Assembly (NCBI GenBank): GCA_023131055.1
Contig: JAGMAB010000002.1
Location: forward strand, 1-48,865
Direction of reading: 5' to 3'
DNA length: 48,865 bases
Source: Candidatus Parcubacteria bacterium
GTDB taxonomy: Bacteria > Patescibacteriota > Minisyncoccia > Minisyncoccales > JAGMAB01
Each line of letters begins with the position of its first letter. Position 1 is the stretch's first letter. Positions 5,100-19,935 of this stretch are shown here, piece after piece. The translations under genes and the position numbers were made by a program. Below the pieces are notes generated by a model, which did no database searches, was not told where the DNA came from, and saw only the letters and a program-made list of their open reading frames with translations.

Positions 5100-5468
5100 A
5101 TGAAAACAATACTTTTTATAGAAGATGAATCAGCTCTTCAAAAAACCTTTGGCGAAAAATTGTCGCAAGAAGGTTATAAACCCATTTCTGCTTTAGACGG
5201 GGAAATCGGCTTAAAATTAGCCAAAGAAAAAAAGCCGGATTTGATTTTGCTTGATTTGATTTTGCCAAAAATTCACGGGCTTGATGTCTTAAAGAAAATA
5301 AAAGAAGACGAGGAGATAAAAAACATCCCGATAATTGTTCTGACTAATTTAGAAGGAATAGAAGAAATAGAAAAAGCAATGGAATTAGGAGCAAACGCCT
5401 ATCTTGTAAAAGCGAATTATAATTTGGAAGAGCTTGCGGAAAAAGTCAAAAAAGCATTGGAAATATGA
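5100..5468 (+). CDS. Single-domain (CheY-like) response regulator
   Basis: The 122 residues form one receiver domain and nothing else. The acidic pocket is E8/D9, the predicted phosphoacceptor is D52 (LILLDLILP), and T82 and K104 (AYLVKAN) complete the switch. There is no output domain, so the protein must act by binding another protein. It follows the histidine kinase by 9 nt, and its stop overlaps the start of pilB (ATGA). A role in controlling PilB or pilus assembly is therefore plausible, but this rests on gene context only. Confidence 0.93.
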   Translation: MKTILFIEDESALQKTFGEKLSQEGYKPISALDGEIGLKLAKEKKPDLILLDLILPKIHGLDVLKKIKEDEEIKNIPIIVLTNLEGIEEIEKAMELGANAYLVKANYNLEELAEKVKKALEI

Positions 5469-7186
5469 AGGTAGAACCACAGCAATTAAAGGCCTTTTTA
5501 TTGGATAGCGGTTCAATCAGCAAGAAGCAGTTTGAAAGCGCGTTAGAAAAGGCAAAAAAAACCAACCAACAAGTTAGCGATGTTTTGGTTTCAGACGGTT
5601 TAATCAGCCAGGAAAAACTAATTCAGCTTGAAGCGTATATTTTGGGAATTCCTTTTATTGATTTAGAAAAAGAAAAAGTGCCATTAAAGATTTTAAAAAT
5701 TATTCCCGAGCCGATTGCCCGTTCTCATAATATCGTTGCGTTCAGAAAAAAAGGAAATAATATAGAAGTGGCAATGTTAGACCCGAAGGATTTAAGAACT
5801 ATTGAATTTATTAAAAAGACCACTTCCTTAAAGATTTTGCCGCGATTAACCACTTCTGAAAGCATTAAAAATGTTTTAAAACAATATCAAGAAACCTTGG
5901 AAGCGGAATTTGGCGATATAATTAAAAAAGAAGCAAAAGGAATAAAAGAGGAGGACGAACTTAAGAAAGCCGCGGAAGAACTTCCGGTAATAAGAATTGT
6001 TGAGACCTTGTTAAAACACGCTATTTTACAGCGGGCGTCCGACATTCATATTGAATCGTTGGAAAAAGAGGTTTTAGTGCGTTATCGCATTGATGGAATT
6101 CTGCATGACGCAATGACTTTGCCAAAGACAGCCGCGTCCGGGATTGTTGCCAGAATTAAAGTTCTTTCTAATTTAAAGCTTGACGAACACCGGCTTCCCC
6201 AGGACGGCCGATTTAAAATTGAAGCCGAAGATTACAAGTATTCTATTCGGGTTTCCATTTTACCGGTTTTTGCGGGAGAAAAAATTGTTATGCGGCTTTT
6301 ATCCGAAACATCCAAGGCCTTTACTTTAGAATCTTTGGGTTTAAGAGGAGAGGCGTTAGAAAAAGTACAGACCAATTTGAGAAAACCGGTCGGAATGATT
6401 TTAGTAACAGGACCTACCGGCTGCGGAAAAACTACTACCTTATATTCAATGATGGAAATTCTCAATAATCCCGGGGTGAACATTTCCACTATTGAAGACC
6501 CGATTGAATATCGCATGCCAAGGATTAATCAAACTCAGGTTAGGGCAAAAATTGGACTTACTTTTGCTTCAGGTTTAAGGTCTTTGGTTAGGCAGGACCC
6601 TGATATTATTATGGTTGGTGAAATTAGAGACAAAGAAACCAGCAATCTGGCTATTAACGCGGCTTTAACCGGCCATTTGGTTTTATCTACTTTGCATACA
6701 ACTAATGCCGCGGGCACTATTCCCCGTTTGATTGATATGAAAGCGGAGCCGTTTTTAATTTCTTCAACTTTAAATTTGATTTTAGCCCAGCGGCTCACAA
6801 GAAAACTTTGTAAAGGGAAAATTAAATACAAATTGTCGTTTTCAGAAATTAAAAATTTAAAAAAATATTGCGACTTGGATAAAATTAATAAAATTTTAAG
6901 AGAAAACAAGTTATTGAAAGCAAATCAGACCTTAAAAGATATTCCATTTTACAAGCCAAAACCATCCAAGGAATGTTCCGAGGGCTATAAGGGACGGCTC
7001 GGTATTTTTGAGGTTTTATTAATTACTGAAAGCATTAAAGAATTAATCGTTAAAAGAGCAGATTCTGACCAAATTACCGAACAGGCAAAAAAAGAAGGAA
7101 TGCTCACAATGATTGAGGATGGTTTTATTAAGGCGGCGCAGGGAATAACTTCAATTGAGGAAATACTCCGCGTCATTATAGAGTGA
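5465..7186 (+). CDS. pilB: Type IV pilus assembly ATPase PilB (GspE family)
   Basis: PilB is the cytoplasmic hexameric ATPase that powers pilin polymerisation. The 573 residues contain an N-terminal MshEN-type domain (about 1-150), a linker domain (ADIHIE-type motif RASDIHIES near 195) and the motor domain with Walker A GPTGCGKTTT (about 316-325), an Asp-box IEDPIEYR, Walker B DIIMVGEIRD and a His box LVLSTLHTTNA. The zinc site found in most PilB/GspE proteins is degenerate: one Cys (RKLCKGK) remains of the first pair and one (KECSEGYKGR) of the second. It is translationally coupled to the response regulator. The partner pilC and the pilins lie about 9.7 kb downstream, beyond the giant fibre gene. 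The retraction ATPase pilT is not in the window. Confidence 0.95.
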   Translation: MKVEPQQLKAFLLDSGSISKKQFESALEKAKKTNQQVSDVLVSDGLISQEKLIQLEAYILGIPFIDLEKEKVPLKILKIIPEPIARSHNIVAFRKKGNNIEVAMLDPKDLRTIEFIKKTTSLKILPRLTTSESIKNVLKQYQETLEAEFGDIIKKEAKGIKEEDELKKAAEELPVIRIVETLLKHAILQRASDIHIESLEKEVLVRYRIDGILHDAMTLPKTAASGIVARIKVLSNLKLDEHRLPQDGRFKIEAEDYKYSIRVSILPVFAGEKIVMRLLSETSKAFTLESLGLRGEALEKVQTNLRKPVGMILVTGPTGCGKTTTLYSMMEILNNPGVNISTIEDPIEYRMPRINQTQVRAKIGLTFASGLRSLVRQDPDIIMVGEIRDKETSNLAINAALTGHLVLSTLHTTNAAGTIPRLIDMKAEPFLISSTLNLILAQRLTRKLCKGKIKYKLSFSEIKNLKKYCDLDKINKILRENKLLKANQTLKDIPFYKPKPSKECSEGYKGRLGIFEVLLITESIKELIVKRADSDQITEQAKKEGMLTMIEDGFIKAAQGITSIEEILRVIIE

Positions 7187-7218
7187 GGAATTAATTGGGG
7201 TCAAACCCCAATCAATTC
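7187..7218. repeat. Palindromic interspersed repeat, copy A
   Basis: An imperfect palindrome centred on TTGGGGTCAAACCCCAA, flanked by GGAATT on the left and CAATTC on the right. It begins at the base after the pilB stop. Related copies lie at 15125, 23712 (diverged) and 48497. Confidence 0.8.
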
Positions 7219-7256: not shown

Positions 7257-7279
7257 AACAGGGGTTTTCCCCTGTTTTT
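7257..7279 (+). terminator. Rho-independent terminator after pilB
   Basis: AACAGGGG-TTTT-CCCCTGTT forms an 8-bp stem followed directly by a T run. It ends the kinase-regulator-pilB operon. Confidence 0.85.
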
Positions 7280-7346
7280 CATTTGACAATCCATATTGGA
7301 TGTCGGAAAATGAAGATAGATATGGATTTACATTCATACTATCTTC

Positions 7347-7369
7347 TTTTTTTCGCAAAGCGAAAAAAA
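7347..7369. other. Perfect 10-bp hairpin upstream of the giant fibre gene
   Basis: Seven T plus CGC, a three-base loop AAA, then GCG plus seven A. It is perfectly symmetric and lies 31 bp upstream of the next start codon. A TTGACA box at 7283-7288 precedes it without a convincing -10 box. The hairpin could act as a leader structure or as a weak terminator. Confidence 0.5.
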
Positions 7370-7399
7370 TAAAATAATCTATTAAGAATATGTATTCGT

Positions 7400-10300
7400 A
7401 TGAAGAATAATTCAAAGGGAAAAAAATTAATCTCACTTCAAGAGGCGACAAAATATTGTTCTTACTCGCAGCCCTATTTAAGATTGCGAGTGAGGCAGGG
7501 AAAATTAAAGGCAGTAAAGATAGAAAATAATTGGTTCACTACTAAAAAATGGATAGAAGAATATTTACAAAAAATTGAAAGTTTTAATGGAAAAAGAAAC
7601 TCTTATTTCCAAAAAGACATTGGAAAATTAAAAACTGAAATTGAAAGATTAAAAAAAGAGATAAAAGTTTTAGAGCCGAAAAAAACTTTTCCAACTTCTC
7701 CAATTCTTGTTTTAAAACCAGCTCTCATTGCAGCCCTGGTTTTTATTTTGTTATGTACAGGAATTGTTTTTGGTAAAGATTCAATTATTAATTTTGCTGA
7801 AGATGTTTCTGAAAACATTTCTGAAAATATTTCTAAAGGGGCAAATATAGCAGGGGAAATAGTATCGGAAATCTCTGTGCCAAAAGTATCTTTACCAAAA
7901 GTATCCTTGCCAAAAGTATCTCTGCCAGAAATATCCGGTTCAGAAATTTCAGCAACAGTGTTTGATACATTCAACATATTGATTTCCGAAATCAATATGT
8001 TGTCCAATAGGGTTGGAAATAAAGCAGCAGATGTTAGCCAATCTGCCAGTCAGGGTATTCAAACAATTCCCCAAACCATAATTCAGGGCTACACTTTTGC
8101 TGATGATTTTGTTGAACAAAAAATTTCCTTGTTTGGTAAAAATATTACTGAAAGATATTTAGCGGCTGATAATTTTGTGGAGCAAAAAATTTCATTATTT
8201 GGAAGACAGATGACTGAAGGAACTAAGGAAGTAGTGGAGATGGTCAGTCAGCCATTTAAAAAAGAGATTGTCATAGAAAAAGTTGCCCCGGTTTCGGGAA
8301 TAACTGAAAAGGAAATTGAAACTTTAAAATCCCAAAGTAAAGAACTAAAAGAAAAAATTGAAAAATTAGAAAGAGAGGGAATTACAGCAAAAGAAATTAT
8401 CAAAGAAGTTGAGGTTTCAAGAATTACAAGAATTGAGCCGGTGAAAGAAATTACAAAAGAAAAAATAATCACTAAGATAGATGACAAGGAATTAAAAAAA
8501 CTCAAAGCCCAAGTAGCTGAATTTTCTCTCTGGGGAACTGACATTGAAGAATTAAGAAACATTACCAAGAAACTTCAGTCCAGGCCTACGGCAACATACG
8601 CGGCAAGCGCTCCAATATATATTGCTTCCCAGGGCCTTCAGGTAGGCGGCACCGGAACATTTGCTTCATTGGGCGTTTCCGGTTCTGCCGGCATAGGTCA
8701 TTTAGGTGTTGGCGGTTCAACTTCTCTTGGCTCAACTTCTTCTGATTATTTAACCGTTAACGCCACTTCTGCTTTTAAGTCAGCAGTAACAGCGGAAGCC
8801 GGGCTGACAGTCGGCACCTCAACCTTGGTTATTGATTCCCAAGGCAATATCTCCACTACCGGAAACATTACCACTACCGGCACAGGCGATCTTATTATTT
8901 CCGGAGACCTTACTATTGCCGGGGCTCAAGTTTTATCCGGAGCATCCAGTTTTACCACTGGAACTTTTAGCGGCGATTTAACAACTGCCGGCAATTTAAT
9001 TTTTGATTTAGCTGAAGATGTAACCATTCAAACAACCGCTCCTTCAGTAGCCAGAATCTATACTATTCCCGACTTTGGAGATGACGATACTTTTGTCGGC
9101 TTGGCTGCTAATCAGGCCTTAACTAATAAGACATACGATGGTTTAAGTTTAACCGCTGAAACCACTGGCTTTACAATTGCTGGTGGAACTACTTCAAAGA
9201 CCTTAACTATAGATGCAGATGGAACTGCTTCCAATTGGAATACGGCTTATACTTATTCTACAGTAGGCCATCTTCCTTTGGTTGGCGGAACATTGACAGG
9301 CAATATAATTTTTGAGGGAGCGAGTGTTGACGAATTTGAAACAACTTTAACAGTTGAAGATCCGACCACTCCCGATAAAACTTTAACCTTGCCCAACTTT
9401 ACTGGATATGTGGTTGCTAATGTTAATAAAGTTACAAATATTGAGGGAACTGGATTGTCTGTTACAGGCGGAACTCTTAACTTTTCAAGTACGGGATTGA
9501 CTTGGGCAGGTAATGTAATAGGATTGAGTGTTGGAGGAACAGGAAAAAATCTAACCGCGACAAACGGCGGCATTGTATGGTCAGATACTGACAGTTTAGA
9601 GATTTTGGCTGCTGGCAGTTCCGGGCAGATGTTAATTTCCGGCGGCGCTGGCACTCCGTCTTGGACAACAACTACAATTCCGTCAACCGCGGCTTCCGGT
9701 TCTATTCTTGCCGCTAATTCGGCTAATACATTATCAGCAATAACTTCAACTTCTGGCACAAAAGTTTTAACAAACACAGCCGGAACAATTACTTGGGAAA
9801 CACTATCTATGACTGCTTCAAGTATTACTGAAACCTGGGCAGGCAGTGTTCAGCAGGCAATTGATAATTTAAGGCAGATGACCGGGCAAATTCGTCCAAT
9901 TAGTCAGGTGCTGGAGATAATAGATACAGGGAGTTATAGCAATATTGAAGCATCAGGAAATAATTATGTTTTAACAGCTGCAGCCACTTCGGGAAATGTT
10001 TTAACAGATGTTATTTCTTCTGATTCAAAACTTCTTTTGTATTTTAAGTCCCTTGAATTAACAGTTATTAATGGCGTTGGAAACACTCACGCAACACCGG
10101 TTCAGGTAGAAATTTACGGCAACGCTGATTCTTACGCGACAGCACTGAATGGAACCACTAAATTCACCATAGACCCAAGTAGTTCGCTTATAGAATTGAA
10201 AAGAAAAGATATAACTGAAGTTGCCACTGGCGCCAATCAAACCGATTGGACAATGACCGCTGCCGGATGTTTTCCATCTGTTGCCGGCGATGAATACGAA

Positions 10301-13123
10301 ACAATCTTGGCTCAGGAAATCGGGGTGGCAGCTGTTTTGGTAGTGGAAAAATCCGTGCTTGGGAGTTTCGCCGATACAGTAGTTTTGGAAGGCGGAACCG
10401 ACTATACAGTTGATTCTTCAACCAGAACAGCCACAAAAATCACTTTAAGTTCATCCGCTGCCAGCGACATTACAACAAGTTCAAAACTCCGCGTAACCTG
10501 GGTGGCTGATGTGATGAAAATTGACAACTCAAATATCAATACATCATTAAAACTGAAAATTTATCTCAATAGAAATGGCGTTGAAGCAACTCCGGAAATC
10601 CAAGAAGTTGCCACTGGCAAATACGTTGAAATGCTGTATGAATATACTTCCAAACCAATGTTGACTGAGAAAGATATTTTACAGCATGACATTGAAACCC
10701 TTACAATGGCAAATGTAATTAACGACGCTATGGGCGCCGGCGTGTCAGCTGACGCTATCGCTACTCAAATAAACACCGCGATTGACGAAGGCGTGAAAAC
10801 CGCCGCAGAGATTGGCGATATTTTTAATACCACTAACTTAACCGCTGCTAATCTCAATTTAATTTGTGATAGTTCTAATATAACATCAACAAATATCAAA
10901 GCGGTTTTGGATAGCGGAAATGTAACGGTAGCGTCACAACTTGGCGCTATGTTAGAAGGAACATCACTAACAGCAGCTAATGCAGCAACTGTATGCAATG
11001 AAAAGTACACGGATGCACAAAAAGCAGCGGCATTCGATAATGCAATAATGTCAGCTGCAAGAATAGCAGCCGTTTGTAACGAAGCAGGATTTACCGCAGC
11101 GAACAAAGCATTAGTATTCAACGAAGCAGGATTTATTGCTGCGAACAAAGCATTAGTATTCAACGAAGCAGGATTTACCGCAGCGAACAAAGCATTAGTA
11201 TTCAACGAAGCAGGATTTATTGCTGCGAACAAAGCAGGTGTATGCAATCACACTAATCTCACAGCAGCAGTATTAAATGCAATCTGTGATAACGCAAATA
11301 TATTATCTGCAACGATAAAAGCGATTCTTGATACCGGGGGAGTTACAGTCGCTTCTCAACTTGGCGCGATGTTAGAAGGCGCGCAACTAACAGCGGCGCA
11401 TGGTGGCGCTGTTCTTAACGCGAAATATTCTGACGCGCAAAAGGGAGCTGCTCTGGCGAACGCTATTATGTCAACAGCAAGAGTAGCATCTTTGCTTGAA
11501 ATAGCGGATTTGACAGCAGGAGTCGCGGGCACAATTTGTAATGCTGCTGAATTCACAGCGGCAAATCTAAACGCAGCTTGCGACCATGTAAATATGAGTT
11601 CTGCGCGGATAAAAGCAATATTAGATACAGCCGGCGTCACAGTAGCATCACAACTTGGCGCGATGTTAGAAGGAACCCAGCTAACCGCAGCCAACGCGGC
11701 AACTTTCTGCGAAGCAGGAACTGTTAACGACGACCAATTAAACGCTGCCTGCGATAACGCAATAATGTCATCAGCCAGAATCAAAGCAATTCTTGATGAA
11801 GGAACAGTTATTACAGCAGGACATTTAGGCGCGATGCTCGAAGGAACGCAGTTAACAGCGGCGCACGCGGCAACTTTCTGCGAAGCAGGAACTGTTAACG
11901 ACGACCAATTAAACGCTGCCTGCGATAACGCGATAATGAGTTCAGCGAGAATTAAAGCAATCCTTGATATAGGAACAGTTACAACAGCAGGTCATTTAGG
12001 CGCGATGTTAGAAGGCGCGCAACTAACCGCGGCCAACGCGGCTAATGTTTGCGAGAACAAATACACAGATGCGCAAAAAGCCGCTGCATTTGATAACGCT
12101 ATTATGACCGCGACTAAAGCCGCCTCTATTTTAGATAATACAAATCTCACTGCTGATAATACTCAAAGTATAATGAGAACAATGAGCAATTACACCAAAA
12201 TTATTGACATTATTGTTGATGACGCTTCTGACACTACTATTTCTTCTAATACCTCTGTTTCTAATGAAGTCAAGCGCTACGGAGACCTGACTATTAACAG
12301 TTCTATTACCCTTACCTTAGATGCTGCTCATAACAGAAAGGTAGTTATTGCTAAGAATGTGATCAATAATGGAACAATCAGCAAGGTCAATCTCGCAAAT
12401 AATGCTGGTGGTGGATTAATTATCATTACTAAAAATTGGGATAATAATAATCTTGTAAAGGCTGATGGAGAAGGAACCGATTCTATTGGTGCGGCTGGAG
12501 CAATTGCTAGGATAGGAACAGATGCGGTGGGAACTGGAGGCGATGGAGGGAATTCGTATGGGCCTTCTGGTGCCGCAGGTAATCCCAATGGTGGCGGCGG
12601 TGGAGGTGGAGCTTTCGGATCCGATCCTACCCCTGGTGGTTCTGTTTCCTATACTGACTATACCGCTGCTTCCCTTTATCAAACCTTTCGCAATGCAACT
12701 ATTGACTGGTGGCTTGCCAATGTTGGCACTGTTAAAAATCCTATTTCTCCTCAATCTTTTCCCAATATCTATGGAGCAAGCGGGGGAGATAGAGGGTATC
12801 ATAATGCTGATTTCTATGGGGGCTACGGAGGTTCTGGTGGAGGGGAAATTATTGTTCTTTCTGATGTTTTTGACAATACTGGTGGGACATTAAGAGCAAA
12901 CGGTTCTAATGGGGGAGACGGTCATACCGCGAACTGCAGCTATTATGCCGGTGGTGGAGGTGGTGGCGGAAGTGGTTTGATCTATGGTTTATATCGTTCT
13001 ACTTTGACCGCCGCTGGAATTCTTACTGCCAGCGGCGGGAGTGGTGGTAATGGCAACTGTTGCCATGTAGGTGGTGTCGGAGTTGCTGGCACTGCCACAA
13101 CCTATTCAGTCTCTGGAGGTTAG
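7400..13123 (+). CDS. Giant surface fibre protein with cytoplasmic helix-turn-helix and one membrane helix
   Basis: This 1907-residue protein has an unusual order of parts. Residues 8-57 resemble a MerR/excisionase-type helix-turn-helix (LISLQEATKYCSYSQPYLR). A short coiled coil and one membrane helix (about 103-125, PALIAALVFILLCTGIVFG) follow. Next come short repeats (KVSLPKVSLPKVSLP; FVEQKISLFG twice), a coiled coil (about 300-390), and a long region of tail-fibre-like beta repeats (TSTLVIDSQGNISTTG, GGTLTGNIIFEG). Residues about 1100-1600 are Ala-rich helical repeats, two sets of which are near identical at DNA level. The C-terminus (about 1610-1907) is Gly-rich with runs such as GGGGGGGAFG and resembles a beta-helix. 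With the N-terminus inside the cell, the rest would be outside. It sits between pilB and pilC, so a role in attachment is plausible. No enzyme motif was seen. Confidence 0.85.
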   Translation: MKNNSKGKKLISLQEATKYCSYSQPYLRLRVRQGKLKAVKIENNWFTTKKWIEEYLQKIESFNGKRNSYFQKDIGKLKTEIERLKKEIKVLEPKKTFPTSPILVLKPALIAALVFILLCTGIVFGKDSIINFAEDVSENISENISKGANIAGEIVSEISVPKVSLPKVSLPKVSLPEISGSEISATVFDTFNILISEINMLSNRVGNKAADVSQSASQGIQTIPQTIIQGYTFADDFVEQKISLFGKNITERYLAADNFVEQKISLFGRQMTEGTKEVVEMVSQPFKKEIVIEKVAPVSGITEKEIETLKSQSKELKEKIEKLEREGITAKEIIKEVEVSRITRIEPVKEITKEKIITKIDDKELKKLKAQVAEFSLWGTDIEELRNITKKLQSRPTATYAASAPIYIASQGLQVGGTGTFASLGVSGSAGIGHLGVGGSTSLGSTSSDYLTVNATSAFKSAVTAEAGLTVGTSTLVIDSQGNISTTGNITTTGTGDLIISGDLTIAGAQVLSGASSFTTGTFSGDLTTAGNLIFDLAEDVTIQTTAPSVARIYTIPDFGDDDTFVGLAANQALTNKTYDGLSLTAETTGFTIAGGTTSKTLTIDADGTASNWNTAYTYSTVGHLPLVGGTLTGNIIFEGASVDEFETTLTVEDPTTPDKTLTLPNFTGYVVANVNKVTNIEGTGLSVTGGTLNFSSTGLTWAGNVIGLSVGGTGKNLTATNGGIVWSDTDSLEILAAGSSGQMLISGGAGTPSWTTTTIPSTAASGSILAANSANTLSAITSTSGTKVLTNTAGTITWETLSMTASSITETWAGSVQQAIDNLRQMTGQIRPISQVLEIIDTGSYSNIEASGNNYVLTAAATSGNVLTDVISSDSKLLLYFKSLELTVINGVGNTHATPVQVEIYGNADSYATALNGTTKFTIDPSSSLIELKRKDITEVATGANQTDWTMTAAGCFPSVAGDEYETILAQEIGVAAVLVVEKSVLGSFADTVVLEGGTDYTVDSSTRTATKITLSSSAASDITTSSKLRVTWVADVMKIDNSNINTSLKLKIYLNRNGVEATPEIQEVATGKYVEMLYEYTSKPMLTEKDILQHDIETLTMANVINDAMGAGVSADAIATQINTAIDEGVKTAAEIGDIFNTTNLTAANLNLICDSSNITSTNIKAVLDSGNVTVASQLGAMLEGTSLTAANAATVCNEKYTDAQKAAAFDNAIMSAARIAAVCNEAGFTAANKALVFNEAGFIAANKALVFNEAGFTAANKALVFNEAGFIAANKAGVCNHTNLTAAVLNAICDNANILSATIKAILDTGGVTVASQLGAMLEGAQLTAAHGGAVLNAKYSDAQKGAALANAIMSTARVASLLEIADLTAGVAGTICNAAEFTAANLNAACDHVNMSSARIKAILDTAGVTVASQLGAMLEGTQLTAANAATFCEAGTVNDDQLNAACDNAIMSSARIKAILDEGTVITAGHLGAMLEGTQLTAAHAATFCEAGTVNDDQLNAACDNAIMSSARIKAILDIGTVTTAGHLGAMLEGAQLTAANAANVCENKYTDAQKAAAFDNAIMTATKAASILDNTNLTADNTQSIMRTMSNYTKIIDIIVDDASDTTISSNTSVSNEVKRYGDLTINSSITLTLDAAHNRKVVIAKNVINNGTISKVNLANNAGGGLIIITKNWDNNNLVKADGEGTDSIGAAGAIARIGTDAVGTGGDGGNSYGPSGAAGNPNGGGGGGGAFGSDPTPGGSVSYTDYTAASLYQTFRNATIDWWLANVGTVKNPISPQSFPNIYGASGGDRGYHNADFYGGYGGSGGGEIIVLSDVFDNTGGTLRANGSNGGDGHTANCSYYAGGGGGGGSGLIYGLYRSTLTAAGILTASGGSGGNGNCCHVGGVGVAGTATTYSVSGG
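11078..11245 (+). repeat. Four 42-bp tandem repeats inside the fibre gene
   Basis: Copies start at 11078, 11120, 11162 and 11204, each encoding NEAGF-AANKALVF. Copies 1 and 3 share GCAGGATTTACCGCAGC, and copies 2 and 4 share GCAGGATTTATTGCTGC, so the array looks like an 84-bp block duplicated once. Confidence 0.9.
11697..11939 (+). repeat. 171-bp-spaced long repeat in the fibre gene
   Basis: A block of about 65 bp encoding ATFCEAGTVNDDQLNAACDNA occurs at about 11697 and again 171 bp later, nearly identical. This gives a 57-residue period and indicates recent duplication within the Ala-rich domain. Confidence 0.85.
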
Positions 13124-13256: not shown

Positions 13257-14546
13257 ATGCAGAAAATAGAAAAGAACAAAATCATTCAACGGGAAGTTTT
13301 TCCTAAAATTGTCGCTCATCTTGGAAAACCGGAAATAACCCTGATTACCGGGGCAAGGCAAACCGGCAAGACAACGCTTTTAGGAATGCTTAAAGAACGG
13401 CTGATCAAAGAAAAAAAAGTTGCTTCTGAAAACATTTTTTACTTTAATTTGGATATTGTAAAGGATTGGGAGTTTTTTCAAGACCAGACAAAGTTTATAG
13501 AATTTCTCAAAGACCGAAGCCAAGAGCAGAAGATTTATGTATTAGTAGACGAGGCGCAGAGAGTTCCGAATTGTTCTCGATTTTTTAAAGGCGTTTATGA
13601 TTCAGATTTAAATGTTAAATTGGTCCTGACCGGCTCAAGCTCATTGGAATTAAAAACACGTTTTCAGGAATCATTAGCCGGCAGAAAACAAGTTTTTCAT
13701 CTTTTTTCTTTTTCTTTTACCGAATTTTTACAGGCAAAGGATAAAATATTAGCCGAACTATTAGAAAAGAAATCTAAAATATCCGAAATTTCCAAGAAGC
13801 AGATTTTATCCTTATTTAAAGAATATGTTATTTGGGGCGGTTATCCGCGAGTAGTTCTTTCTTCAACCAATCAAGAAAAATCAGATGTTTTGTCTGATAT
13901 TTATTCCAGCTATATTGAAAAAGACATTGTTGGTTTATTGGAAATAAAAAATCGGCTGAAATTTTCTGATTTAGTGAAACTTTTAGCCGGGCAAATAGGA
14001 CAGCTAGTTAATATAAGCGAGTTGTCTAACTCATTAAATTTAGACAGAGAAACAGTGGAAAGATATTTGAAAGCGCTGGAAGAGACATTTATTATCAGTC
14101 CTTTAATCCCTTATTTTAAAAATCCTCGCCAGGAAATAGTAAAACAAAATAAAATATATTTTAATGATACTGGAATTAGGAATTACGCTTTGGATAATTT
14201 CTCATTGCTTTCCGAAAGGCAGGATGCGGGATTGGTCTTAGAAAATACTGTTTTTAGAGAAATTTTGCTTTCTTTGTCTTTATTTCAAAAGATTCGTTTT
14301 TGGCGGACAAAACAGGGAGCTGAAGTTGATTTTTTAATTTTGAAAGGAGAAAAAATAGTTCCGATAGAGGTAAAATCAAAGATAAGAAAACCAGTTATTT
14401 CTTTAGGTTTAAGGAGTTTTATTGAAAAATATGTTCCAGAAAAAGCTTTTATAGTTAATCTATCATTAGAACAAGGAGTAAAAATTAAAAAAACAAAAGT
14501 TGATTTTATTTATCCTTTTGAGATTCAAGGAAAATGTCAATCCTAA
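13257..14546 (+). CDS. AAA ATPase with DUF4143 domain (AAA_14 family), copy 1
   Basis: The 429 residues show Walker A GARQTGKTT (32-40), Walker B IYVLVDEAQ (about 97-105) and the sensor-like VLTGSSSLEL. A winged-helix-like segment (LVNISELSNSLNLDRETVERYL) and the DUF4143 region with IYFNDTGIRNY follow. The C-terminus carries a PD-(D/E)XK-like fold signature (EVDFLI...PIEVKSK). Proteins of this family are common in archaea and CPR bacteria and their cellular role is not settled. A second, diverged member lies at 15498. The gene is bracketed by copies of a 35-bp sequence, which suggests insertion or duplication. Its last 13 bp overlap the start of the next gene. Confidence 0.88.
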   Translation: MQKIEKNKIIQREVFPKIVAHLGKPEITLITGARQTGKTTLLGMLKERLIKEKKVASENIFYFNLDIVKDWEFFQDQTKFIEFLKDRSQEQKIYVLVDEAQRVPNCSRFFKGVYDSDLNVKLVLTGSSSLELKTRFQESLAGRKQVFHLFSFSFTEFLQAKDKILAELLEKKSKISEISKKQILSLFKEYVIWGGYPRVVLSSTNQEKSDVLSDIYSSYIEKDIVGLLEIKNRLKFSDLVKLLAGQIGQLVNISELSNSLNLDRETVERYLKALEETFIISPLIPYFKNPRQEIVKQNKIYFNDTGIRNYALDNFSLLSERQDAGLVLENTVFREILLSLSLFQKIRFWRTKQGAEVDFLILKGEKIVPIEVKSKIRKPVISLGLRSFIEKYVPEKAFIVNLSLEQGVKIKKTKVDFIYPFEIQGKCQS

Positions 14547-15497: not shown

Positions 15498-16706
15498 ATG
15501 AGTATTATTAGAGATTTAACCCTAAAAATCCAAAAATATTTAGATAGAGACGAAATCTTGCTTATTATTGGAGCAAGGCAGTCCGGAAAAACAACTCTCT
15601 TACATCAAATAGAGGATATTTTGAAAAAGCAAAACCAAGCCAATTATTTTTTGAATCTTGAAGACCCGGATTATTTATCCCTGCTTAATCAATCTCCCAA
15701 AAATCTATTTAAAATTTTTTCTTTTGATTTGAAGCAGAAAACTTTTATTCTTATAGATGAAGTTCAGTATTTAGACAACCCTTCTAATTTTTTGAAATAT
15801 TTTTACGATGAATATTATGGCAAAATTAAAATAATTGCCTCCGGCTCATCGGCGTTTTATCTTGATAAAAAATTTAAAGATTCTTTGGTAGGCAGGAAAA
15901 GAATTTTCCATCTTTTCACCCTTTCTTTTAGAGAATTTTTGCGGTTCAAAGATGAGAATCAACTCAGCCAAAAAGATTTCCAGAATTTAAGTTTACAGGA
16001 GCGAGAGAAAATCATTCTTTATTATCAGGAATACATCACTTTCGGCGGTTATCCGAGAGTTGTCTTAACTCCCTTAAAAGAAAAAGAGGAGATATTAAGA
16101 GATATCGCTTATTCCTATATTAAAAAAGATATTTACGAGGCAAATATCCGTCAGGACGAAGTTTTTTATAAATTATTTAAGATTCTCGCTTCGCAAATTG
16201 GAAATTTAGTCAACAGTTTTGAACTTGCTTCTACCTTAGGAATTTCCAAAACAGCCATAGATAACTATCTCTACGTAATGCAGAAGTCCTTCCATATTCG
16301 TTTAATCAACCCCTTTTTCAAAAATTTAAGAAAAGAATTAACAAAAATGCCAAAGGTCTACTTTTTGGATTTAGGAATAAGAAATTTCTTTCTTAAAAAT
16401 TTCAAACTATTTCAGGAAAGGGAAGATAAAGGTCCTTTATTAGAAAATGCTCTTTTTAGACAACTGATAGAGAAATATAATTTTGACGAAATAAGGTTCT
16501 GGCGGACTATTCAGAAGCAGGAGCTAGATTTTATTATTGATGAAAAAATGGCTTTTGAGGTTAAAGTTCAACCGGATAAATTTAAGAAGAAAAATTATAA
16601 AGTATTTTTAGAAAACTATCCTCAGATAAAATTTTCCATTGTTTCTTTTGATACAAAAGAAAAATTAGTTGCTTCGCATCAAGTTTTTGAAATCTATCAA
16701 ATATAA
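15498..16706 (+). CDS. AAA ATPase with DUF4143 domain, copy 2
   Basis: The 402 residues have the same architecture as the gene at 13257: Walker A GARQSGKTT (25-33), Walker B FILIDEVQY, GSSAFYL, the shared REFLRF and GGYPRVVL motifs, DUF4143 with VYFLDLGIRN, and a C-terminal nuclease-like signature (ELDFII...AFEVKVQ). Similarity is clear but far from identical, so this is an old paralogue rather than a recent tandem copy. It has its own promoter. The function is unknown; the C-terminal fold suggests nucleic acid or partner binding. Confidence 0.87.
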   Translation: MSIIRDLTLKIQKYLDRDEILLIIGARQSGKTTLLHQIEDILKKQNQANYFLNLEDPDYLSLLNQSPKNLFKIFSFDLKQKTFILIDEVQYLDNPSNFLKYFYDEYYGKIKIIASGSSAFYLDKKFKDSLVGRKRIFHLFTLSFREFLRFKDENQLSQKDFQNLSLQEREKIILYYQEYITFGGYPRVVLTPLKEKEEILRDIAYSYIKKDIYEANIRQDEVFYKLFKILASQIGNLVNSFELASTLGISKTAIDNYLYVMQKSFHIRLINPFFKNLRKELTKMPKVYFLDLGIRNFFLKNFKLFQEREDKGPLLENALFRQLIEKYNFDEIRFWRTIQKQELDFIIDEKMAFEVKVQPDKFKKKNYKVFLENYPQIKFSIVSFDTKEKLVASHQVFEIYQI

Positions 16707-16839: not shown

Positions 16840-18054
16840 ATGCCAAAGTATTTTTACACGGCTAAATCTCTAAAAGGGGAAAGTAAATCAGGAACTTTGG
16901 AAGCAAAAGGCAAATATCAGTTGGCAAAAACCCTGCGTAATCAGGGTTTGATTTTAATTGAAGCAAAATCCATTTCCACTGCTTCTCAGAAAAAAAAGTG
17001 GTGGGAGGCTTTTTTAAACCGCGTGAGTTTGGAAGAGAAAATGTTCTTTACCAGAAATTTACAGGTAATGATTGGCGCAGGTCTTTCTTTGCCAAGGACT
17101 TTAGATTCTTTGGCTAATCAGTCAAAAAATAAGAATTTTAAAAAAAACTTGTTGGATATAAAAGAAAAAATTACTAAAGGAACAAGTTTTTCTGACGCTT
17201 TAGCCTGTTATCCTGAAATCTTTTCAGAGCTTTTCCGAAATATGATAAAAGTAGGCGAGGAAGCCGGCACTCTGGAACAGGTTTTGAAAACTTTAACGTT
17301 GCAGATGGAAAGACAGCACAAATTATCGTCAAAAGTAAAAGGAGCAATGCTTTATCCCGCGGTTATTATAACGGCAATGCTTGGAATTGGGGTTTTAATG
17401 TTAGTTATGGTTGTGCCAAAAATAAGCAAGATACTTGAGGATTTAAACATAGAATTGCCGATGACTACTCAATTTATAATTGGTTTAACTGATTTTTTAA
17501 TTACAAAATGGTATTTGGTTATTTTAATTCTTGTTTTCTTTCTTTTTTCTTTTTGGCAGTTTATTAAAAACAAAAAGGGAAAAGAAATCATAGACGCTAT
17601 TTTTTTACGACTGCCTTTTATTTCGCCAATCATTAAAAAAACCAACTCTGCTTTTACGGTGCGAACTTTAAGTTCTTTAATTGCTTCAGGAATTCCTATT
17701 GTCAGGTCGCTGGAAATTGTTTCTGAAACAATGGGAAATGTTCATTATAAAAATGCCTTAAAGCAAGCCGCTGAAAAAGTCAAAAAAGGAGAAAAACTGT
17801 CTGAAGCGCTGAAACCTTATGAGGATATTTATCCATTAACCGTAATCCAGATGATTGCCGTGGGAGAAGAAACAGGCGAAACATCGGGAATTTTAGCGAA
17901 ATTGGCTGATTTTTTTGAAGAAGAAGTAAATAGAATTACTGATAATTTCAGTTCGGTGATTGAACCGATTTTAATGATTGTTGTCGGGATAGCGGTAGGT
18001 TTTTTCGCTGTTTCAATGCTTCAGCCAATGTATTCAATATTAGGAGGAATATAA
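16840..18054 (+). CDS. pilC: Type IV pilus inner-membrane platform protein PilC (GspF family)
   Basis: PilC anchors the assembly ATPase and extracts pilins from the membrane. The 404 residues match the family length and show two T2SSF repeats, each with the FTRNLQVMIGAGLSLPRTLD / FTVRTLSSLIASGIPIVRSL pattern. There are membrane helices near 173-193, 224-245 and 375-398. The N-terminal MPKYFYTAKSLKGE is typical. A -10-like TAAGAT ends six bases before the ATG, so the mRNA is probably leaderless. It heads an operon with pilins and pilMNO. Confidence 0.95.
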   Translation: MPKYFYTAKSLKGESKSGTLEAKGKYQLAKTLRNQGLILIEAKSISTASQKKKWWEAFLNRVSLEEKMFFTRNLQVMIGAGLSLPRTLDSLANQSKNKNFKKNLLDIKEKITKGTSFSDALACYPEIFSELFRNMIKVGEEAGTLEQVLKTLTLQMERQHKLSSKVKGAMLYPAVIITAMLGIGVLMLVMVVPKISKILEDLNIELPMTTQFIIGLTDFLITKWYLVILILVFFLFSFWQFIKNKKGKEIIDAIFLRLPFISPIIKKTNSAFTVRTLSSLIASGIPIVRSLEIVSETMGNVHYKNALKQAAEKVKKGEKLSEALKPYEDIYPLTVIQMIAVGEETGETSGILAKLADFFEEEVNRITDNFSSVIEPILMIVVGIAVGFFAVSMLQPMYSILGGI

Positions 18055-18942: not shown

Positions 18943-19417
18943 AAAAGGAATTGCCGTCATAGAAATTTTGATTATTATTGTTATTATTACTACCGCGTTA
19001 ACCGCTCTTTTAGGTTTGGTTGCTTTTTCTTTAAGAGCGTCTGTTTTAATTAAAGAAACAACTCAGGCAAAGAATATTGCCGAGGGAATAATAGAACAAA
19101 CGCGAAATTTCAGAGACGGAACAATTTGGGACACTGACGGGCTTGGCGTTTTATCCACAGGGATTATTTATCATATTGAAAAAACAACAGATGCGTTGCC
19201 GAAATGGCAAATAGTTGCCGGGGAGGAAACAATTGACGGTTTTACGAGAAAAGTTATTTTTGGAGAGGTTCAAAGAGATGGAGATGATAATATTGTTGAA
19301 ACAGAAGGAACTATTGATTCTGACACTAAAAAAATAACCGCTGCTGTTTCCTGGCAGACAAAAGGAAAAACCCGTCAAATAGAAATCATAACTTTTTTAA
19401 CCAATTGGAAACAATGA
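18914..19417 (+). CDS. Type IV pilin-like protein (PilV-like)
   Basis: This 167-residue protein has the prepilin pattern KKG-IAVIEILIIIVIITTAL, with Ile in place of the usual Phe at the first mature position and the conserved Glu five residues after the cut site. It overlaps the previous gene by 29 bp. AAAAGG five bases before the ATG at 18914 supports this start. The position between a GspH-like and a GspJ/PilW-like gene fits a minor pilin set that primes pilus assembly. Confidence 0.82.
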   Translation: MFLIQWKHNKKGIAVIEILIIIVIITTALTALLGLVAFSLRASVLIKETTQAKNIAEGIIEQTRNFRDGTIWDTDGLGVLSTGIIYHIEKTTDALPKWQIVAGEETIDGFTRKVIFGEVQRDGDDNIVETEGTIDSDTKKITAAVSWQTKGKTRQIEIITFLTNWKQ

Positions 19418-19935
19418 GAAAAGGATTTACATTAATTGAAACTTTAGTTTATGTAGCAATATTGGCAATTGTTATTTCAGCGGTTTTTTCTTATTTTTTT
19501 TGGACTGTTAATTCTAATATTAAAACCAAGGCAATGCGGGAAACCTTGGATAACGCCAGAAGAGCTATGGAAATAATAACCCATGAAATAAAAGAATCAG
19601 AAAGTATTTATATTCCAACCAGTGTTTTCGGTTCTCATCCAGGCCAGATTTCTTTAGAAACAAAAAAATACCTGCCGGAAGGAGAGGTCATTACTTATAT
19701 TGATTTTTTTCTTTGCGAAGATAAAATCTGTTTTAAAAAAGAATCTCAAAATGCAATCGCTTTAACTTCTAACAGAGTAAAAGTAAGTAAATTGGAATTT
19801 AATCAAGTTGCCACTGATTTGCTTTACCCTTCTATTCAAATTGAGCTAAAGGTTGATTATAATACCTTGGCTGATAAGCCGGAATATCAGGCGTCAGTTG
19901 AACTTTTTTCTACCGCTTCTTTAAGGTCTTTTTAA
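19414..19935 (+). CDS. Type IV pilin-like protein (GspJ/PilW-like)
   Basis: The ATG at 19414 overlaps the previous stop (ATGA) and gives MRKG-FTLIETLVYVAILAIVIS, an ideal class III signal. The track's longer form from TTG at 19405 adds only three residues and is less likely. The mature part contains TMRETLDNARRAMEIITHEIKES-like sequence, as in GspJ/PilW minor pilins. It belongs to the pilC-pilO operon. Confidence 0.85.
   Translation: MRKGFTLIETLVYVAILAIVISAVFSYFFWTVNSNIKTKAMRETLDNARRAMEIITHEIKESESIYIPTSVFGSHPGQISLETKKYLPEGEVITYIDFFLCEDKICFKKESQNAIALTSNRVKVSKLEFNQVATDLLYPSIQIELKVDYNTLADKPEYQASVELFSTASLRSF

Follow-up and report, generated by a model that had tools for sequence, protein, structure and literature searches.

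The giant protein encoded downstream of pilB is best read as a membrane-tethered winged helix–turn–helix (wHTH) transcription regulator fused to a large, variable surface fibre or adhesin and acting on its own promoter, a reading to which we give a probability of about 60%. The gene lies in a 48,865-nt stretch of a Candidatus Parcubacteria contig, referred to here as the window; gene calls were mechanical throughout. In the proposed mechanism, the MerR/Xis-type wHTH would stay in the cytoplasm and recognise short sites in the promoter region of its own gene, located upstream of the −35 box, between the two boxes and downstream of the −10 box, whereas the single helix would anchor the molecule and the fibre would project outward. 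In this way the amount of fibre would be limited or tuned by the membrane-bound protein itself, and either stretching or binding on the outer side could alter wHTH binding inside. We infer from sequence comparison that the domain binds directly, that it represses and does not activate, that a signal is transferred and that the diverged window copy still works in this way.

The layout of the gene and its surroundings is given in Table 1. The wHTH was placed using an HMM built from relatives, and transmembrane (TM) helices were called by hydropathy. In Pfam searches, HTH_17 (PF12728) matched residues 11–58 weakly, at 16.1–22.5 bits and under the curated cut-off of 27; the same domain gave E = 8e-5 in a search of its own genome, and one relative scored 33.8 bits. 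The score under the cut-off could be taken to mean that the HTH is a chance or annotation artefact, produced by a wrong start or by composition, but the architecture is conserved in ~100 relatives and the fold is confidently predicted, so that this explanation was set aside with next to no residual weight. The initial annotation had described an N-terminal HTH, a membrane helix and about 1780 outer residues, and had asked whether the HTH might come from a start error. Both the HTH (HMM at residues 9–56, pLDDT 97–98 and DNA-binding-type fold matches) and the single hydrophobic helix (residues 102–120), followed by ~1,787 residues, proved real, and the same order in a paralogue on contig C35 and in ~100 relatives speaks against a wrong start.

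Table 1. Features of the window around the giant gene (positions within the window)
Feature	Position	Strand	Basis
pilB (T2SSE ATPase), upstream neighbour	5465..7186	+	Pfam T2SSE, E=9e-123
Degenerate DnaA-box-like TTTTCCCCT, 18 nt upstream of TTGAC, a spacing also seen in relatives	7265..7273	+	Alignment
−35-like TTGACA	7283..7288	+	Promoter scan; identical and aligned in C35 and G001 promoters
Operator-like site TATTGGATG, degenerate; the paralogue has TATCGGATA at the aligned position	7294..7302	+	Alignment, family motif statistics
−10-like GAAAAT	7306..7311	+	Promoter scan, 10/12 matches for the −35/−10 pair
Terminator-like leader hairpin, then T run	7312..7346	+	Fold z = −5.3 for 7305–7399
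wHTH-TM-ectodomain protein gene (1907 aa, ATG start)	7400..13123	+	ORF list, homologous order in relatives
Winged helix–turn–helix, residues 9–56	7424..7567	+	Relatives' HMM, subthreshold HTH_17, AlphaFold2, fold matches
Cytoplasmic linker, residues 57–101	7568..7702	+	AlphaFold2 secondary structure
Single TM helix, residues 102–120	7703..7759	+	Hydropathy; family charge bias
Stalk common to window protein and C35 paralogue, up to residue 524	7760..8971	+	
Outer part, variable: a region rich in Thr/Ser/Gly/Ala, with repeats and a Gly-rich end	8972..13120	+	Composition, tandem repeats
pilC (T2SSF), downstream neighbour	16840..18054	+	Pfam T2SSF, E=9e-57
Pseudopilin gene nearby	19405–19935		N_methyl match (Pfam)

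A positive-inside bias was seen family-wide, with a mean net charge of +1.66 before the TM helix and −0.07 after it (n=107), and a cytoplasmic position of the wHTH is favoured. Small residues occur at −3/−1 past the helix in many relatives, and signal-peptidase cleavage after the helix was considered as a candidate. The outer part matched no Pfam or PHROG family; the window protein as a whole gave no PHROG match that would place it among phage tail fibres, and Pfam found no N_methyl (class III N-terminal methylation motif) that would place it among type IV pilins. Its description as a fibre draws on composition, repeats and relatives and is meant in that qualified sense. Near-perfect tandem repeats of 42/84 nt and 171 nt occupy 11078–11268 and 11657–12042 of the ectodomain coding region and are likely a site of length variation.

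For the N-terminal domain, AlphaFold2 run on a 45-sequence alignment gave pLDDT values of 97–98 over residues 11–60. The model contains a long helix (residues 49–91) that runs into the linker, possibly as a coiled coil, and the protein might dimerise through this linker helix. Foldseek's top PDB matches included Pukovnik Xis, a MerR regulator, RdfS, GlnR, TraN, BldC and CbpM (3ucs), with the MerR/Xis group dominating the top of the list; E-values were weak because the domain is small. TM-scores normalised by target were ~0.7 to 6ama and 4j2n, both BldC/excisionase wHTH proteins. Structure prediction, proposed in the initial annotation as a check of the N-terminus, thus returned a confident wHTH fold with its closest PDB matches of the Xis/BldC/MerR kind, and as modelled this assignment is secure. 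The domain is not an OmpR-type winged HTH, as Pfam returned no OmpR-type domain and the fold matched Xis/MerR/BldC. The C-terminal 347 residues, modelled without an alignment, reached a pLDDT of only 32.

Base-contacting residues of BldC were taken from the published work (PMC5859096). Arg30 of BldC corresponds to Leu29 in the class-a domains defined below, and the wing residues His46/Arg47/Arg48 correspond to Trp/Val/Thr, so the binding mode must differ from that of BldC. MerR-type proteins read DNA by residues other than BldC's, and the BldC contacts were therefore dropped as a decisive test of DNA binding.

The C35 paralogue (1286 aa) has the same wHTH-TM-ectodomain order and is 57% identical to the window protein over residues 9–524, with no match between the two past residue 524; wHTH, membrane helix and stalk are therefore shared and the tip is different. 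Using the first 157 residues as query, matches were found in 33/60 related genomes, while a profile of the wHTH domain matched 91/196 genomes of the order and, at a strict limit, 30/287 genomes of the phylum. Scanning named genomes brought up 170 relatives, and the 80 of these that were listed are mainly from Parcubacteria, e.g. Nealson-, Wildermuth-, Portnoy- and Gribaldobacteria; a search for viral relatives gave one weak match. Of the 113 family ORFs left after de-duplication, 86 combine one or two wHTH copies with a single TM helix and an ectodomain (83 with at least 150 residues after the TM helix, plus three cut by contig ends), 18 are short wHTH-TM proteins and two were identified by eye as Fic proteins whose wHTH is C-terminal. 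The survey for the HTH-TM-fibre order suggested in the initial annotation thus yielded ~100 relatives across Parcubacteria. Fic-like proteins with the same type of wHTH at the C-terminus were also noted at L058, L062, L206, L207, L210, L222 and L227. Ectodomains reach ~5,200 residues in relatives and vary in content, comprising LVIVD and RCC1 propellers, F5/8C, an S74 chaperone (only in relative L048) or nothing known.

An unbiased k-mer count upstream of family genes was aimed at a shared operator and had already picked out the motif when the classes were drawn up. Class-a was then set by a residue pattern in the recognition helix, with class-b comprising tandem wHTH proteins with a different recognition helix. 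The site TATCCGATA was present upstream of 45/87 class-a genes and of 6/626 controls (P ~3e-40, a value that overstates independence since the sequences are related), and with one mismatch allowed in 72/87 and 37/626, respectively. Only one of 14 class-b promoters carried it; these instead had TCTCGAnnnTCGAGA (at most two mismatches) in 11/14 cases, against 0/87 class-a genes and 6/626 controls. A sequence-specific domain that acts on the promoter of its own gene would be expected to show such a change of site with wHTH subfamily; a protein-binding anchor would not. A split-half test recovered the motif in 23/43 genes of the discovery half and 22/44 of the test half, compared with 11/659 controls. 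With one mismatch allowed, the class-a site was found before 45/52 rodA-linked genes and 27/35 others; its presence both beside rodA and elsewhere ties it to the gene, not to the location. In the regions preceding rodA, ligA and pseudopilin genes of the same loci, 9-mers with at least three G/C were common to at most 11–24%, versus 52–53% for family genes. The initial annotation had suggested that one molecule would touch DNA inside the cell; the DNA-binding wHTH fold and upstream sites that change with subfamily lend this good indirect support, the binding itself being a prediction.

The sites lie 20–40 nt before TTGAC, in the −35/−10 spacer and 40–60 nt after TTGAC, and those in the spacer and past the −10 box suggest autorepression. 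Most class-a genes have several sites per promoter, as might be expected if DNA served as a tether, binding near the gene fixing the fibre at one membrane spot and regulation being secondary; diffusion and capture gather CadC into clusters at its DNA site, where its operator can hold it (PMC6320335). By likeness to operator-held CadC, the fibre may be anchored near the nucleoid. As the main role of the domain, tethering is nevertheless very unlikely, since the sites occupy promoter positions, which regulation explains directly.

The promoter sites could also be read by another protein, such as a small wHTH relative, leaving the fibre wHTH as a remnant or a membrane-side weight. Short wHTH-TM genes adjoin giant ones at L037, L096, L057 and L114, and relatives of other classes include soluble wHTH-only proteins of 73–84 aa that, like other members of these classes, have related palindromic TATCGG(A/C)TA-like sites upstream (read by eye). 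The wHTH of the fibre proteins is, however, very strongly conserved across ~100 genes, and the only two HTH_17-type domains found in the genome that contains the window are both on giant proteins, those of the window and C35. We regard a separate reader as decidedly improbable.

A DnaA-box sequence, TTATCCACA, was found upstream of 46/87 class-a genes, and in 43/47 cases TTATCCACA or TTTTCCACA stood 17–19 nt from the TTGAC −35 box. The element TTATCCACA precedes wHTH-TM genes at, e.g., L037, L052 and L055 and was also noted at L238 and L253; some of the non-family genes behind it, judged from their starts, look like ribonucleotide reductase genes. Such a DnaA-box-like element, at a nearly fixed spacing and in front of such genes as well, hints at replication-coupled control. 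Occurring before other genes too, TTATCCACA is therefore a wider promoter element.

The window promoter aligns with the promoters of the C35 paralogue and of a relative of the same genus (G001). The exact class-a site occurs twice in the 505 kb of the genome, once ~100 nt before the start of the C35 paralogue, and neither an exact nor a one-mismatch copy was found upstream of the window gene. In its wHTH, positions 25, 28, 31, 42 and 43 differ from the family consensus. By these alignments the window copy is a paralogue that has diverged and whose site is degenerate, and the case is therefore weaker for it than for the family; either its specificity has shifted along with the site, or site and wHTH would both be decaying. 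The leader hairpin is kept in the C35 paralogue, with changes on both sides, and is possibly an attenuator. No Rfam family matched at the curated threshold in the loci of 12 relatives, and the matches in the window leader were weak and no better than chance.

Terminator-like hairpins were found past pilB by a terminator scan (7194–7212 and 7257–7276), and together with the gene's own promoter they suggest a transcription unit separate from pilB. The initial annotation set the gene between pilB and pilC, which is broadly correct, with three other genes also in the interval. Two AAA_14/DUF4143 ATPases (13257–14546 and 15498–16706) lie between the giant gene and pilC. This pil position is atypical for the family, whose members are most often found straight after rodA: the nearest upstream gene was rodA in 50 cases and ftsX in five, and family genes often stand last in a series made up of pilus genes, ligA and rodA (gene names in the neighbour survey were read from cluster representatives unless a Pfam search had been made). 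An NLP motif, mostly PP-x-NLP, was present in 34/107 cytoplasmic linkers against ~2 in shuffles, in 28/49 rodA-linked proteins versus 4/55 others, and as P[PA]xNLP in only 1/928 other genes of the loci. This is suggestive of a partner in the cytoplasm, possibly one connected with rodA. In L036, L045, L047, L079 and others, PP-x-NLP-[VIT] is conserved amid variable linkers.

These associations with rodA and with the linker motif are what a RodZ-like anchor would lead one to expect, in which the cytoplasmic wHTH binds a cell-shape or pilus machinery protein and positions the fibre, DNA binding having been lost. MreB was found in the genome itself (G000) and in 60/60 related genomes, usually in two copies, and the RodZ-type HTH_25 scored above cut-off in only 3/60 of the latter, with no match in the former; the HTH/MerR folds of RodZ and CbpM are known to bind protein (PMC6946637, PMC4063869). 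An anchor of this kind was favoured at first and was lowered to an unlikely alternative because the promoter sites change with wHTH subfamily, which it does not predict, and they are also found away from rodA. In addition, the window copy does not adjoin rodA, and its linker lacks PP-x-NLP.

The closest published class to the autoregulator preferred here is that of the transmembrane transcription regulators (TTRs) of the ToxR and CadC types (PMC10269533, Demey et al. 2023). Like TTRs, which are mostly single-pass, the family combines an N-terminal DNA-binding-type domain, predicted to be cytoplasmic, with a single TM helix and an outer domain; the window protein carries a wHTH and one TM helix in one chain, where the class is defined by a DNA-binding-type domain with at least one such helix. 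It differs from ToxR and CadC in having a wHTH of the Xis/BldC/MerR kind instead of the OmpR type, and from TTRs in its adhesin- or fibre-like outer part of up to ~5,200 residues and its candidate sites in the own promoter. BldC/excisionase (HTH_17) proteins share the fold of the wHTH, whereas the family domain is membrane-tethered, has key BldC base contacts replaced and in the window falls below the Pfam cut-off. RodZ, with a cytoplasmic HTH, one TM helix and an outer domain, has the layout predicted for the family, and family members often adjoin rodA, but the HTH family is another one (HTH_25 being absent from the own genome), the ectodomain is giant and promoter sites are present. CbpM resembles the wHTH in its MerR-like fold (3ucs) and is by contrast a soluble, protein-binding co-chaperone regulator for which operator sites are not reported. 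Among the open-access papers covered, no description of a wHTH-TM-giant-ectodomain architecture was found.

Parcubacteria combine tiny genomes with ultra-small cells and presumably live attached to other cells. Coupling of contact to gene expression, as raised in the initial annotation, would be compatible with a regulator held in the membrane. A single polypeptide might here be adhesin and transcription factor at once, so that binding to a host or surface alters promoter occupancy with no kinase or second messenger and an episymbiont controls its attachment fibre directly by contact, a proposal that we regard as possible but doubtful. The operators predicted for the family make the autoregulator reading testable with short purified domains, no culture of the organism being needed. 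If that reading holds, hardly any simpler circuit for attachment control could be conceived than a fibre that itself carries the domain binding its promoter, and the known range of membrane transcription regulators would come to include very large adhesin-like proteins.
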